From assembly GCF_000687815.1 (NCBI RefSeq), contig NZ_JHXU01000002.1:1-64000 (forward strand): a DNA stretch of 64,000 nt, read 5' to 3'. Every line of letters starts with the position of its first letter. Position 1 is the first letter of the stretch. Source of the stretch: Mycoplasma elephantis ATCC 51980. Its GTDB lineage: Bacteria; Bacillota_I; Bacilli_A; Mycoplasmatales; Metamycoplasmataceae. The notes beneath the pieces are model-generated. The model worked only from the letters and a program-made list of their open reading frames with translations. It was not told the origin of the DNA and searched no databases. Positions 5,154-40,097 of this stretch are shown piece after piece. Both the position numbers and the translations under genes were made by a program.

Positions 5154-7805
5154 ATGAATAAATTCAAAAAGTTTTTTGCCCTAAACACTTTTAAAAGATG
5201 GGTTATTCTTAGTTTTACATTTATAGCAACCATTATTTCAATAGTGTTTGGTGGTGTTTTTTTTGTTTCTAAAAATATTAATAAATCTATAGAATATGGT
5301 GGAGGGATTCAGGTTATTGTTCAAGTAACTAATAAGGAATCCGCAAATCCAAATGATGTTGATAAAAAACTTGTTGAAACAGTTTCTGAATCTATTAATA
5401 ATAGATTAAATGGCGGAAATGGATTGAATGGCATTAAAACTACAATTGGTAGTGATGGAAAAATTAAAATAACAAAAAATGGCGGGGTTTCCGAAAGAGA
5501 AGTTGATTCATTTATTAATCAAATCATAAGCAAACCTCAACTTGTTATGACCGACACAAAAATGAGACCTTTATTTGTAAATGGTTTCTTTAACACAAAT
5601 ATTAATGATATAAATAACTCATCAAATACCATTGATTATAATAACTTATCAAAATATGCGCCACCAATACAACCCGGTAGTGCTAAAGCTCTTTTAGCTC
5701 CAAACGGTAGTAATTATCTTTCTTTAAATCTAAGAGAAGATAATCAAGGAAGTTATCAGGTTGAGTGAACAAAGACTACTGAACATATCTCAAAAACTGG
5801 AGATAGACAAATCCTAATGTGAATAAACTTAGATTCTCTTATTAACATTGCCAAAACTAATTTTCCCAAGGAATGAGAAAACGCCAAACAAAATCCATAT
5901 AATTTTGTTTATGTTAATGAATCGCCAACACCAAAAACCGGTGAACAAAACACTAGTTTAAAACCAATACTTAAAAAACACACCATAAACGCAAAAGATT
6001 TCTTAATTTCTCAAGCAATGGTACAACAACCACTTAATGGAAATTCATTTCAAATTTCTGGTAATTTCACACCAGAAGAAGCTAATCAATTAGCCCTAAA
6101 TATTAATTATGGAACAGCTAAATATGATTTAGATTTTGTTTCTAGTTCAATAATATCTCCAAATAGTTCAAATGTATCTAATTTTGATCATGCATTAATT
6201 GCAGGAATTGTTGTTTTAACATTAATTTCTATCTTTATGATTGCGAACTATTTCTTATTAGGAATAATAACTACATTATCAATGTCTTTATATATTTTCT
6301 TAACATTACTTTTATTTTCGGCTTTAAATGGAGAATATTCGCCAGCAACTATTGCATCATTAGTTATAGGTATAGGACTTAGTGTTGATGCTAACATAAT
6401 TACATATGAACGGCTTAAGAATGAATATTATAATGGCGATAGTTTAATAAAGGCGACAAGGAATGCTCACAAATTTTCATTATCTTCTATATTAGATGCT
6501 AATATAACCACTTTAATTATTACATTTGTTTTATTTTTCTTTGGTTCAATTAGTGTTAAAAGTTTTTCTATTTCATTAATGATTTCAGTAATGTTCACAT
6601 TACTAGTTATGCTAATATTCAATAAATTACTTGTTAAAATTTTAGTTAATATTCCAATAATAAAAACTAGACCATGACTATTTGGAATTTATAAAAAACA
6701 AAATCAAGTTCAAGATGTAACAAATAATAATATTCCATTTTATAAAAAAATAAATTATGTGAAAGCGTCAAATTACTTATTTCTAATTTCATTTTCAATC
6801 ATTTTTATTATATTAATTGCTTTTATTATTTTATCAATAGTAAACAAAAATGTTTTTGGTGCATTTAATTTGTCAGTTGATTTTAGTGGTGGAAGCATTG
6901 TGTCAATAGAATCACCAAATATTGATATACCTTTAGAAAATACAACAAACCCACTAAATGCAACAAATATAAAAAATGAAATTATCAATATTTTTAACAA
7001 TAAAAACATTGATATTACGAATGATATTAAAATAGTCAAAAAAGATATTGCTGGAACAAATTATGGAATTGAAATAAGAACATCAAAAGACATTATTGAT
7101 TTTATAAATGATAAAACATCAAATGGTTTCGCACAAATACTAAACAGTAAATTCATAGATTTAAAAGTTGCAAATTATTCAATTTCACAATCCGAATCAA
7201 TAAAAATTGTTAACAACGCATTGTTAGCAATAGGTATATCATTTATAGGCATTATTGTTTATACAATAATAAGAATGCGTTGAACTTATTCAATTGCCGC
7301 AATAATAGCCTTACTACATGACTTATTATTTGTTATAGGAAGTTTTATCGCTTTAAGACTAGAGGTTTCACCGATTATAATAGCTGCTATGTTATCGATT
7401 GTGGCATTCTCAATTAATGATACAATTGTTATCTTTGATAGAATTAGAGAAACCATTAATACAGAATATTCAAATCAAGTAATTTCTAAAGAAGATTTGA
7501 AATTAATTATTAATAAATCAATAGGCGAAACAATTAAACGTTCATTGTATACATCTATAACCACAATTATCACTGTTTTAGTTTTATTAATGTTTAAAGA
7601 TGCTACCGAATTGAATTTTAATATAGCTATGTTAATAGGGTTATTTGTTGGTGCATATTCATCTATTTTTATAGCAACCCAAATATGATTTAGACTTGAA
7701 ATATTACGTCAAAAAGGTATACAAAGAAGAAAAGAAACAAAATTTTGAAAAATTAATAAACCAAGCGAACAAATTTTCCCGGGTATAAATGACTTTAAAT
7801 ACTAA
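5154..7805 (+). CDS. secDF: Fused protein-export membrane protein SecDF
   Basis: 883 residues through five or more UGA Trp codons. SecDF uses the proton-motive force to complete Sec-dependent export. The SecD half opens with a membrane span and the motif IEYGGGIQV, has a large extracytoplasmic P1 domain (about 45-330) and a five-span block with SVDANIITYERLKNE. The SecF half has LSVDFSGGSIVSI and ends with FSINDTIVIFDRIRE. No Shine-Dalgarno is seen; an extended -10 (TATGTTAAAAT) ends about 9 bases before the ATG, so the mRNA may be leaderless. A terminator follows. Confidence 0.95.
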
Positions 7806-35015: not shown

Positions 35016-35193
35016 TGAATACTTTCTTTTAATATTTTATATTAATTACATAACATTATTTTTTTAAAATACATAAATACTATAAGAATGGAATATCATT
35101 TATAATTATTTTTGTTATATTGTTATAAATAACAAAATTGTGTATTAGACTCATTTCAATATATCTTGCAAAGTTTAAATGTATTTTTTCATA

Positions 35194-35199
35194 TATAAT
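35194..35199 (+). promoter_or_regulatory. -10 box of the methyltransferase gene
   Basis: TATAAT, 26 bases before the ATG at 35226, with AAAGG between as a Shine-Dalgarno. It suggests the off-frame gene is still transcribed. Confidence 0.5.
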
Positions 35200-35225
35200 A
35201 ATTTAAAAATATAAAGGTTAATAAC

Positions 35226-36064
35226 ATGTTAATAGAAAATTCATCCATAAACAATAAGGAGAGAGAGAGAGAGAGAGACTAGTCTCTCATAATTTTTTAC
35301 ATAAAAAAATTGTTATTTGAGCTTTATTTGATGATGCAAATTCATCATACAAAAATGGAATAGAAAAATACTTTAATAAAATTAATGATGGCTACAAAAT
35401 TGAGGTTCATTCGATTGGTATTAATGATATTAATTTTAATGAAAATAGTGATTATTTTTATCACAAAATAGATTTATCCATTACTAATTTTTCACTTATA
35501 AAAGAATTGTCTAATTTACCAAAACCAGACATTATTTTGGCATCCCCACCTTGTGAATCTTGATCCTCCGCTGATTGCGCCGGAAAAATAGTAAGGCGTT
35601 TTTCAAGCGATGGAATTTGAGAAGTTAAAAATAAAAAATATTATGATGATATGAATAAGACTTGCCACCCTGTTAAACATAGATATTTTGAGCAAAAAGA
35701 AAGGGGCAGATTGATAGGGGAGGGCACAATAGCTGGGACAATATTTATCATAAATAGTTTTAAACCAAGGGTATGAATAATAGAAAATCCGACAACATCA
35801 AAAACATGAGAATATCAAAGAAATCATTGAAATTTTGTTGGAAACGAAAATAAAACGTATTATAGTGCATATGATAAAAGATTTAGTTTAAAACCAACCA
35901 TATTTAAATCGAATATTAAATTAAATCTAAGTTTAGAGCGAAAAAAGAGCAATAACCATCATATGGCATTTGGTTCTTATACACAAAGAAGTTCTATACC
36001 AAAAGAACTTATAAGAGAAATTATTAAGCAATGCATTGATTATATGGAGAATAAATATAAATAA
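35226..36064 (+). CDS. Phase-variable DNA cytosine-5 methyltransferase, in the OFF frame
   Basis: From 35258 to 36064 one frame encodes VIWALFDDANSS (SAM-site region), ILASPPCESWSSADC (PPC catalytic motif IV, about 106), VWIIENPTTSKTW (ENP for ENV, motif VI) and a C-terminal block like phage-type C5 methylases. That frame has no ATG before its upstream TAA. The only well-placed start, ATG 35226 after AAAGG, is joined through (GA)10 (35259-35278) and at ten units runs into TAA after about 22 codons. With nine (or six, twelve) units the two join to give about 279 residues. The product would methylate cytosine; the target is unknown. Confidence 0.8.
35259..35278 (+). repeat. (GA)10 tract in the 5' coding region of the methyltransferase
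   Basis: Ten perfect GA units inside the reading frame. Each gain or loss of a unit moves the frame by two bases, so one state in three is ON; ten units is OFF. Confidence 0.9.
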
Positions 36065-36148
36065 AGATTGTATTTATAACTAAAACTTATTTGTTATTAA
36101 GATTTACCATAAATTTAAAAACATATTAATTATTTAAAGGAAAACAAA

Positions 36149-39024
36149 ATGGATGATAAGAAAAAAATAAATTATTGAACAATAGGAACAGGTCTTGATA
36201 ATTATTTTGATGCAATAATTAGTTGACTTAAATTTGAAAACTTAGATTTAATGAAATTTAAGGAGACAAAAATTATTTATGAACTTCAAGAAAATGATAA
36301 TGATGATAATAATAGAGTTAGGTGCTATTTTGAAAATTATGAGAATATTCCTTTTTATAAATGCAATAAGTCATATGGTAAAAGTACAATTGATCAATTT
36401 TTACATTTTTTAACATTTTTCGAAGTTATTGAAGAATATTCTTATTCTATTGCACCATATTATTACAAAATAAATAAAAATTTCATAGATAAGTTTTGTT
36501 CTTATTTTTATGAAAAAAAATTAGAAGGAATAGAAAAAGAATTATCTTTGTATTTAATGGAAATATTAAAAAATAAATTAACCAAACACAATGAAAAATT
36601 GCAAAATTTAATAAATGAAGAAAATGACGAAATTGAAGAAAATGTTTATATTAATACCTATAGCCATAGAATTTTAAATTCTTTTGTTGTAGATTATTTA
36701 AGAAAAAAAGAGATACTTACTAATAAATCATTCGAATATAAGGATATAATTAAAAAAATAAAAAAAATTTGCGAAATAAAGAATGATGATTATTATTTTT
36801 ATAATATATTAAAAAAATTTAAAGATATTTTAAAAAATTCAAATGAATTTTCTAAATTAAATGAGATTTTTGAATTTATTGATAATGAACTTTTTAAAAC
36901 ATTAATCAAGTATTTAAAGTGACCATTCTATGATAATTCGAAAATATTATTTTTAAAAATTGATGATAATAACACAAATAATTATGAAGAATATTGCCTA
37001 TCTAAAATACAAGATAAAAATAATATAAGTAATGACAATAATTGTTTATTAATAAATATCTATGATCTATTATTAAATTCAGACAAATTGAGTTCAAAAC
37101 AAAAAATTAATATACCAATTTATCAAAGAAATTATGTGTGAAATAATATTACTGTTTCTAATATGATAAATAGTATTTTAGATGATGTTAGAAACAATAA
37201 AGCTAACAACACCAAATATAGTTTTTTAAATAATATAATTTACACAGTAGATCGAACTTATAAACAAAATAATTACTATACAACATTAAATATAATTGAT
37301 GGACAACAAAGAATATTTACATTATGATTAATAATATTTTCATTATCAAAATTATTGATCGAAGATAAAACTAATTGTGTTGAATTAAATAAAATATTTG
37401 AATCTTCAAAAAAATTTAATGAAATATTTTTTAATGAAAATGCAGATGAATTAGAATCATATAAGAACTTTTATGAAATTATAGATTGAAAAGATAATAT
37501 AGAATTTGAAGGTAACAAAATTTCAGAGTTATTGACAGAAATTTGCAAATTAATTAGAGATTTTTCAAATGATGAAAAAATTAATTTTAAAAAAATATTG
37601 GAACATATTTTATTTAATACATATGTTGTCCAAACAATATTAAATGATTTTGAAGGTCATAAAATTTTTCAGAATTTAAATAAAAATGTAAAAATTTTAA
37701 ATTCATTAGATTTATTAAAAAATCAAATATATACCTATATATATAACGATAAAAATAACAATATAGATCGGAATGAAGAAATTAATAAATATATAAGAAT
37801 TACAAAACCATTTTATAAAGAGAATGGAGATTTGAATGCAAAATACATAGAAAATTTTGCATCACTTTTATTTTTTAGGGAAAAAACAGAAAGATTTCCA
37901 AATTTAAAAAGGAATGATTATGATTTAAACATGTTTGTTTTTGAAGAATTAAAAGCATGTTTTGATAAATGAATTAATGATGAAAAAAATAATTCACCTA
38001 AAGAATCCACCATAAAATATGCTTTAAGAAAATTTGAGGAAAATATAAATAAGTATTTTTTAATTAAAAATCCTTATAGCGACTGTAAACCAAACTTTTT
38101 TCCAATGAAAGTATATTGTGTTCAATATATGGTATTACAAATAAGGGAGATATAAATGTTACTTATCCCGTTATATGAGAATTACTAGACAAATATAAAA
38201 TATGAGACATAGTTAAAAAAAATACATTAGTAAAAGATGAATATAAAAATATAGAAATGGTTTCGAAGTGATTATGTGAATTCGAAAAATTTATTGTGTT
38301 ATGAAAAACAAGATATTTTAAAGGTCAATCAATAGGAGATTCTTTAAGACAAATTACTGAGAGAATCAAGAGTAATGAAACCTACTCTTTATCAAGATTC
38401 CGGAAAGAATTGTTAGGAATAATTATTAATGATCAAGACATAAAAATAATAAACGAGAATTTTTGTACAGCAATTAAAGAAAAAATAAGCAACAATATCG
38501 AAAAAGATATGATGAACAAAAATAAAATAAATTTCTTAGTTAGAATTGATTTTTATTTATCAAACAGAAAAAAATTAATTATTAGTCCATCAACTTCCGA
38601 CCTAATTACAGTCTATAATCATAAAAAAATAACATATGAACATTTTTTAGCAAATAAACCAAAAAATGAAATAGAGAAAAAATATCAATTATTATCATCA
38701 TCAATCGGAAATGGAATTCTACTCACTAAAACAGATAATATCTCAGCAAAAAATAAACCTATATGAGAAAAATACGAATCGTATGAAAAAAACAACACAA
38801 TTCCAGATACAAACAAAATATATTATGGTGAAAAAGATATATTAAGCCCGCTATTTACTAACGAAATGAAAAAACTATATTCTCAAAAGAATGATAAATT
38901 AAAGCATGAACTATTAAATTTATTTGAAAAAAACATTAAATTAAGAGAAGCGCAAATCGCAAATATTCTTTATGAAATGTATAAATATGAAGAAATAAAT
39001 GAAAATAGTGATGATAAATCATAA
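36149..39024 (+). pseudogene. DUF262/DUF1524 (GmrSD-like) restriction-type protein, split by a -1 shift in a T run
   Basis: First frame: 668 residues to 38155. A unique N-terminal part (about 1-300) precedes the DUF262 signature IPIYQRNYVWN (about 322) and LNIIDGQQRIFTLWLI (about 382). After a six-T run (38096-38101) the homologous sequence goes on in the -1 frame: NKGDINVTYPVIWELLDKY, then ITYEHFLANKPKN (HNH-like His) and SIGNGILLTKTDNIS, the 'GNL.LL...N' of DUF1524, ending at 39024. A seventh T would restore about 958 residues. DUF262 is a ParB/Srx-like NTP-using domain and DUF1524 a nuclease, the pair found in GmrSD and relatives. It lies 84 bases after the methyltransferase. Confidence 0.75.
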
Positions 39025-39048
39025 TTATTATTAATAAGAAAATTTTAG

Positions 39049-39054
39049 TATAAT
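39049..39054 (+). promoter_or_regulatory. -10 box (TATAAT) of the candidate small RNA
   Basis: TATAAT 25 bases beyond the stop codon of the DUF262 gene. The -35 is weak. A transcript would begin near 39061. Confidence 0.5.
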
Positions 39055-39060
39055 GATAAT

Positions 39061-39131
39061 GTAAAGATAGTTCTTAACTATGTTTAGCATAGAAAGTCTA
39101 TTAACGGAGACCTATTGGCCTTCGTTTTTAT
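39061..39131 (+). ncRNA. Candidate small structured RNA beside the abiF-like gene
   Basis: After the TATAAT come a hairpin (ATAGTT, CTT, AACTAT at 39067-39081), a short single-stranded stretch and a strong terminator-type hairpin (ACGGAG..CC TATT GG.CTTCGT) followed by TTTTTATTTTT. There is no reading frame. It is convergent with the abiF-like gene and the terminator stem includes its last codons. A structured 'abiF RNA' near Abi_2 genes is known from comparative work and RNA antitoxins of AbiF proteins have been reported; whether this RNA belongs to that class is inference. Confidence 0.5.
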
Positions 39132-40047
39132 TTTTATAATGAATATAATTTAAAATTTTTGCACTTATTTCTGTATCAAAACTATCATTATTTATGTATT
39201 TATTTATTTTTTGTATAAAAATAAATCTTAATGATTGAAATTCTAACCCATTTCTATTTTTATTATTTAGCGCATCCAAAATATTTACTATATCAAATAG
39301 CCTTATTTTTATGTTTTTTGAACCATTGACTACTATTTTTTTCTTAATATTATAAAGAACATTATTGTGACAAATTCTATTTCTTGTTTCTTTTAAAATG
39401 ACTAAAATAGATAAAAAATATTTTGATGAATAAACATTAATATTTTTTAAAATAATAAATTTAATATCATCGTTTATTTTTTTATAAATATCAATTATTG
39501 TGCCAAAAGACATAAGGATCATAAAGATTCAAATTGGGCACATTTTTAGATTATCTTTATATTTCAAAATAAGGTTATTGTATCTAAGTATTCATAATTT
39601 ATCAATAATTTCTTTTCTTAACGATAGACTTGAATCATAGGGGAAAAGCAAATTTCAATCTTTGTTATTTATGTCAAGTATTTTCCCGTTTTTAAATCTA
39701 TCAAAGAAACCATTCTCGTTTACTCATTTATTCATTGCATAAATTATTAATGATGAAATTTTTCTTTCTACATTTTGTATATTTGATAAAATAAAATTCG
39801 AAATTCCTCGATCAAAATTAAAAAGAGAGATTATATTAGAAGGTCTTGCATTACTTTTATATTTTCTCATTTTACGATCTTCATTTACAAAAAAGAAGTC
39901 ATTATATCCATTTACAAAATTTTGATATCCATACATTTTAAGATATAACTTAAATTTATTTTTTTCACTTTCGCTTGAGAATTTTAAATTTCTTTGTTCA
40001 AGAAGTTCGATTTGTTCATCAATACTTAAAAATGGTTTATTTTTCAT
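39112..40047 (-). CDS. AbiF/AbiD-type (Abi_2) HEPN abortive-infection protein
   Basis: 311 residues read through four or more UGA Trp codons. The Abi_2 opening LSIDEQIELLEQRNLKF, then FKLYLKMYGYQNFVNGYNDFF and RGISNFILSNIQNVERKISSLIIYAM, are family-like. The HEPN RNase motif is RNRICHN (R-x4-H, about residue 221). Such proteins act as toxins that cleave RNA and stop growth on phage infection. No Shine-Dalgarno at the ATG. Convergent with the DUF262 gene and the candidate RNA; divergent from the ABC-F gene. Confidence 0.8.
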
Positions 40048-40097
40048 TTGTAAATTATATATAATAAAAGAACTAATATTTTGAGGTGTATAAATTT

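Follow-up and report, generated by a model that had tools for sequence, protein, structure and literature searches.

The locus lies within a 64,000-nucleotide stretch of Mycoplasma elephantis ATCC 51980 DNA (hereafter the window), in an interval (35016–40085) holding smpB, a methyltransferase–nuclease gene pair, an AbiD gene and an ABC-F gene. At the head of the pair, a (GA)10 tract (35259–35278, plus strand; 10.0 copies with a 100% match by TRF), read directly from the sequence, sits between an ATG at 35226 and the plus-strand frame of a predicted C5 methyltransferase (35279–36061, stop 36062–36064; conserved domain from 35303). Read with the mycoplasma code, the methyltransferase frame runs uninterrupted for 261 codons, six of them TGA (tryptophan) (the chance of an open frame of this length is ~2 × 10−9 from base composition). 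As the initial annotation had claimed, this frame has no start of its own: a stop closes it just 5′ of the tract, no start lies between that stop and the tract, and its first ATG, GTG or TTG (TTG 35507) falls inside the enzyme, with none 5′ of the conserved domain. Translation from ATG 35226 runs through the tract to TAG 35280–35282, immediately behind it (plus-strand leader frame 35226–35282, encoding MLIENSSINNKERERERD and then the stop), leaving the gene OFF as assembled. The frame of this ATG is one off that of the methyltransferase, such that multiples of three units (6, 9 or 12) join the two and 10 or 11 do not; the position of the TAG and the frame arithmetic agree with the earlier claim of a gene OFF at ten units and open at six, nine or twelve. 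The arrangement is that of a repeat-driven phase-variable gene, with the repeat between start and enzyme and the number of units setting the frame.

Both motifs that the initial annotation had placed upstream of ATG 35226 can be read on the plus strand, namely a Shine–Dalgarno-like AAAGG (35213–35217, 8 nt 5′ of the ATG) and a −10-like TATAAT (35194–35199), but in a promoter scan the TATAAT match was no better than in shuffled sequences (7 found versus a mean of 10.9). The tract itself is far outside chance expectation (a first-order Markov model predicts ~2 × 10−8 (GA)10 tracts in 770 kb) and is the sole GA tract of at least 7 units in the 770-kb window genome; in the nearest relative (G082), too, no GA tract of that length was found apart from that of the methyltransferase. 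The end of the window tract can also pair with a TCTCTC just 3′ of it, ahead of a T run (35269–35298), forming a terminator-like hairpin with the OFF-frame stop in its loop, a feature not seen over the tract in the relatives looked at.

Several lines of evidence bear on the identity of the enzyme, which had been assigned to the C5 methyltransferases on its PPC and ENP motifs. The frame matched phrog_2882 (DNA methyltransferase; E = 3 × 10−63) over nearly its full length, and the closest named homolog, at 58% identity across the enzyme, was MarMP of Mycoplasma phage MAV1. PPC and the EN of ENP are invariant across 41 homologs and the following P is conserved in >90% of them, and neither motif varies among the 24 nearest. 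General C5 models scored below their curated cut-offs (PF00145, 16.5 bits versus 22; TIGR00675 dcm, 14.1 versus 100.65), and the fold was therefore tested with an AlphaFold model built from the 41 homologs (pLDDT 84, pTM 0.84). The 50 PDB matches shown for this model were all C5 methyltransferases (HaeIII, DNMT3, HhaI; probability 1.00), at modest TM scores of ~0.36–0.50; a sequence search of solved structures returned no match. Judged from the model and the motifs, the assignment holds and the predicted enzyme is a divergent branch of the C5 cytosine DNA methyltransferases; a Type III Mod (N6-adenine, DPPY motif) was ruled out, the enzyme being of the PPC/ENP C5 type. MarMP starts MNKTIVWAL, and the window frame reads HKKIVIWAL at the same place, where the usual start codon is absent and a leader with the GA tract and another start comes before it. 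Values of dN/dS were 0.16 for the window methyltransferase relative to G082 (74% identical) and 0.10–0.25 across five pairs in all, this pair included, indicating that the methyltransferase is still under purifying selection.

To place the tract in a wider context, a profile of the family was searched against 320 genomes of the order (Mycoplasmatales), with matches in 66; a first genome-collection scan with a single-protein query had given no match, and in the named-genome collection only three mycoplasma records matched, uncultured or metagenome-assembled. Among the 320 genomes, 14 MarMP-like methyltransferases have an ATG separated from the enzyme domain by a GA/AG tract of 6–24 units (G000 (the window genome), G130, G082, G080, G269, G149, G111, G087, G280, G308, G258, G265, G268 and G157), spread over six genera, two families and 13 species besides that of the window. 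As assembled, all but one (G280, ON) are OFF, and the offset from ATG to enzyme is +1 in eight, +2 in five and 0 in one, so that both wrong frames occur, as slippage predicts. The proportion OFF (13 of the 14) exceeds the two-thirds expected by chance (P = 0.03), which counts against a phase-variable reading; two of the 13 (G087 and G157) have an in-frame TTG 5′ of the tract as an alternative start.

These offsets also bear on whether the enzyme might be made without any change in repeat number, by programmed ribosomal frameshifting at the tract or from a non-AUG start behind it, such as the in-frame ATT 35309. The tract encodes a slippery-looking RERERE run and ATT 35309 coincides with the start position of some phage homologs, but no Shine–Dalgarno-like sequence precedes this ATT (a possible though unlikely start), and the offset varies between homologs such that no fixed shift would serve the family, which rules out a fixed programmed frameshift and makes this route as a whole improbable. 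We regard it as very improbable that the true repeat number is in frame and was misread in sequencing or assembly: the window genome is a draft of 25 contigs, but a 20-bp tract is shorter than any read and each of the two wrong frames is represented among 12 other assemblies, which include single-contig genomes.

Every repeat-bearing member falls in one clade of 26 (support 94/93) that also includes the MAV1 MarMP, and the repeat is present in 18 of the 25 scorable clade members versus 0 of the 18 other tree rows (Fisher tests on this distribution ignore relatedness and are indicative only). Variants on the arrangement include a (CA)8 tract in place of GA, in frame (G156), and an interrupted GA run (G155). 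Two further members carry repeats upstream of an in-frame ATG, 44–66 nt before the conserved domain ((AT)9 in G081 (L107) and (TA)10 in G129 (L118)), where switching at the promoter is possible. A repeat is absent from almost all phage homologs of the methyltransferase. The viral and named-genome collections yielded 114 homologous loci; of these, a repeat close to the start was seen in just two mycoplasma records and in a Mannheimia sequence that occurs in both collections. From these comparisons, the gate appears to be an on/off defence switch in wide use and not an isolated case.

That 13 other species have the gate too, with differing frames, bears out the core of the initial annotation, a C5 methyltransferase whose sole good start enters it via a slippable repeat; what that reading missed was the pairing with a nuclease, and the frameshift in that nuclease. 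In the window, a GmrSD-type nuclease gene follows on the plus strand, its N-terminal domain and DUF262 part in a first frame (36149–38155) and its DUF1524 part in a second (38116–39024), with homology to the intact G082 nuclease changing frame at a T6 run (38096–38101). Both domains that mark the GmrSD nuclease family are thus present but split over two frames, and the window nuclease is probably inactive, unless the assembly is wrong. It starts 84 nt 3′ of the methyltransferase stop and is not close-coupled; with the frameshift, this distance suggests that ON cells here may only methylate. Across the chromosomal clade, most methyltransferases overlap or abut their nuclease gene, with the nuclease ATG mostly −17 to +9 nt from the methyltransferase stop. 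A cognate nuclease beside the methyltransferase, as in a Type II restriction–modification system, is found in nearly all chromosomal members, intact in most relatives and frameshifted in the window. Partners are of two types: GmrSD-type proteins of 900–1023 aa (G082, G080, G111, G129 and G130) and, in half of the clade, HNH_2 proteins of 390–480 aa, both of the two tested passing the NCBIfam model ‘MAG4270 family putative restriction endonuclease’. An N-terminal domain of ~95 residues is common to the two types (hhalign 95%, E = 4 × 10−8) and may recognise the target.

Comparison of three genomes of the genus indicates that the pair has been inserted at a variable site: between smpB and ABC-F, G001 has a small ORF and G002 the AbiD gene only. 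A prophage origin of the locus was not supported, the neighbours being chromosomal (smpB, AbiD, ABC-F) and the interval varying within the genus. The AbiD-like (Abi_2) gene beside the pair in the window (39112–40047, minus strand) is an abortive-infection gene. An insert in a variable spot, with an OFF methyltransferase and a distant, frameshifted nuclease, is also what would be expected of a decaying remnant, in which an acquired pair lost its nuclease to a frameshift, leaving the methyltransferase as a pseudogene that happens to include a repeat. However, the methyltransferase remains open over all of its codons and under purifying selection, and the same gate recurs in the other species, with the nuclease intact in 11, and we therefore consider decay unlikely.

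In these relatives, 11 OFF methyltransferases adjoin an intact nuclease gene, an arrangement that would be dangerous with a classical restriction enzyme unless the nuclease were coupled to, or dependent on, the methyltransferase. If the genes are expressed, the nuclease would spare DNA methylated by its partner and would not be lethal with the methyltransferase OFF; its harmlessness could be accounted for either by coupled translation or by a need for the methyltransferase. Coupling may be leaky, as many nuclease starts have their own Shine–Dalgarno-like sequence. The second option, that the nuclease needs the mark or the methyltransferase itself, so that the repeat would switch the whole defence and the OFF state would be harmless, is a possible but less favoured account. 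Besides the 11 intact nucleases, it is suggested by the relationship of GmrSD-type partners to SspE and Type IV enzymes and by constitutive pairs in which a methyltransferase with a plain in-frame ATG accompanies an intact nuclease gene (G309, G289, G129 and G251). SspE requires phosphorothioate to act. Against it, coupled translation accounts for the same facts, and the HNH_2 partners in half of the clade are named as restriction enzymes. The GmrSD-type partners share DUF262 and DUF1524 with GmrSD, BrxU and SspE, but differ from them in an additional N-terminal domain and in being paired with a C5 methyltransferase of their own.

Starting from the tract, frames, conservation, partner genes and selection, all shown here, we favour the reading that the locus is a phase-variable Type II-like restriction–modification module of mycoplasmas (with a probability of roughly three in four). 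The MarMP-like methyltransferase would be translated from the ATG 5′ of the GA tract, and slipped-strand changes in repeat number, which we infer for M. elephantis, would put this ATG in or out of frame. In the relatives, the start of the nuclease gene falls within or beside the methyltransferase stop; nuclease translation is therefore probably coupled to that of the methyltransferase, and the two genes would switch ON and OFF together. The restriction activity and target site of the module are likewise predicted, and so would be any phasevarion role, in which its methylation state would alter the expression of many genes. In the window, with the methyltransferase OFF and the nuclease frameshifted, a switch to ON would probably give methylation without restriction. 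The intact nucleases beside OFF methyltransferases and the window’s own broken, loosely placed nuclease count against this reading.

The use of GA tracts for this purpose would not be unusual in mycoplasmas, in which GA-gated Type III, Type I and CpG methyltransferases are already known. GA tracts of at least 8 units occur in 94 of the 135 genomes of the family, and 20 of 22 sampled outside the MarMP-like methyltransferases precede Type III mod, Type I hsdS or other DNA-methyltransferase genes (identified by inspection of motifs in the downstream frame rather than by profile searches); the other two precede one possible further modification enzyme and no clear gene, respectively. Read from these sequences, a GA tract in the family appears to be a mark of phase-variable DNA modification. 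In one genome (L039, G076), a 14-unit GA tract precedes another, ordinary-looking C5 methyltransferase.

Slippage of such tracts has been demonstrated in mycoplasmas (PMC3498834, PMC9465063, PMC5476646), with GA switching of Type III mod genes in MmyCI (PMC3498834) and M. agalactiae (PMC9465063), and dinucleotide length variants arise in vivo, the OFF form being the commonest for a number of genes (PMC5476646). MmyCI (AG12 OFF, AG10 ON; PMC3498834) and other GA-gated mod genes resemble the present module in repeat, OFF/ON logic and the order of mod then res, but MmyCI is an N6-adenine enzyme whose nuclease works only with Mod. Closer in chemistry are the CpG C5 methyltransferases, which are switched by poly(G) in M. 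agalactiae, where length variation was shown, and which in M. pulmonis and M. crocodyli have a poly(GA) tract (PMC9465063); these, however, belong to another methyltransferase family, have the tract mid-gene and are treated as without a cognate nuclease. Genes gained by M. felis include a ‘C5 methylase (MAV1virus-like)’ and an ‘HNH endonuclease’, unlinked, in the portion of that report consulted (PMC11004492), possibly the same kind of pair, although that portion reads them as replication genes and mentions neither repeat nor pairing. In the open-access literature, we found no report of a MarMP-like methyltransferase–nuclease module as phase-variable or as a pair.

An oddity of one sequence thereby becomes a conserved switch that can be put to the test, in which one enzyme in many mycoplasma species is tied to a nuclease and has a dinucleotide repeat in its opening codons. 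If the favoured reading is true, a few cells would keep a restriction barrier while most of the population accepts foreign DNA, the persistence of methyltransferase–nuclease pairs in OFF genomes would be explained, and a mycoplasma phage would have a reason to carry the methyltransferase alone. In phage MAV1 (L010, 2128–2907), MarMP nests in the chromosomal clade but has a plain in-frame ATG, no repeat and no matching nuclease, being followed by marRP, which is dissimilar to the window nuclease; MarRP was accordingly rejected as a homolog of it. Possibly, judging by its sequence and position in the tree, MAV1 MarMP is a captured methyltransferase used as counter-defence. More tentatively, a new class of phase-variable defence pair may exist in the Mycoplasmatales, in which a frame-gated C5 methyltransferase is combined with interchangeable GmrSD or HNH_2 nucleases that have a recognition domain in common and are active only with the methyltransferase ON, slippage of one repeat arming or disarming the system as a whole, and in which the ungated MAV1 enzyme serves as counter-defence. 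Outside the mycoplasmas, the Mannheimia sequence (Mannheimia sp. USMARC-1261; L157, ~5957–5991, and its copy L240) carries a (TGCAA)7 repeat just after motif I that places a homologous methyltransferase out of frame, a candidate independent repeat gate in the Pasteurellaceae.
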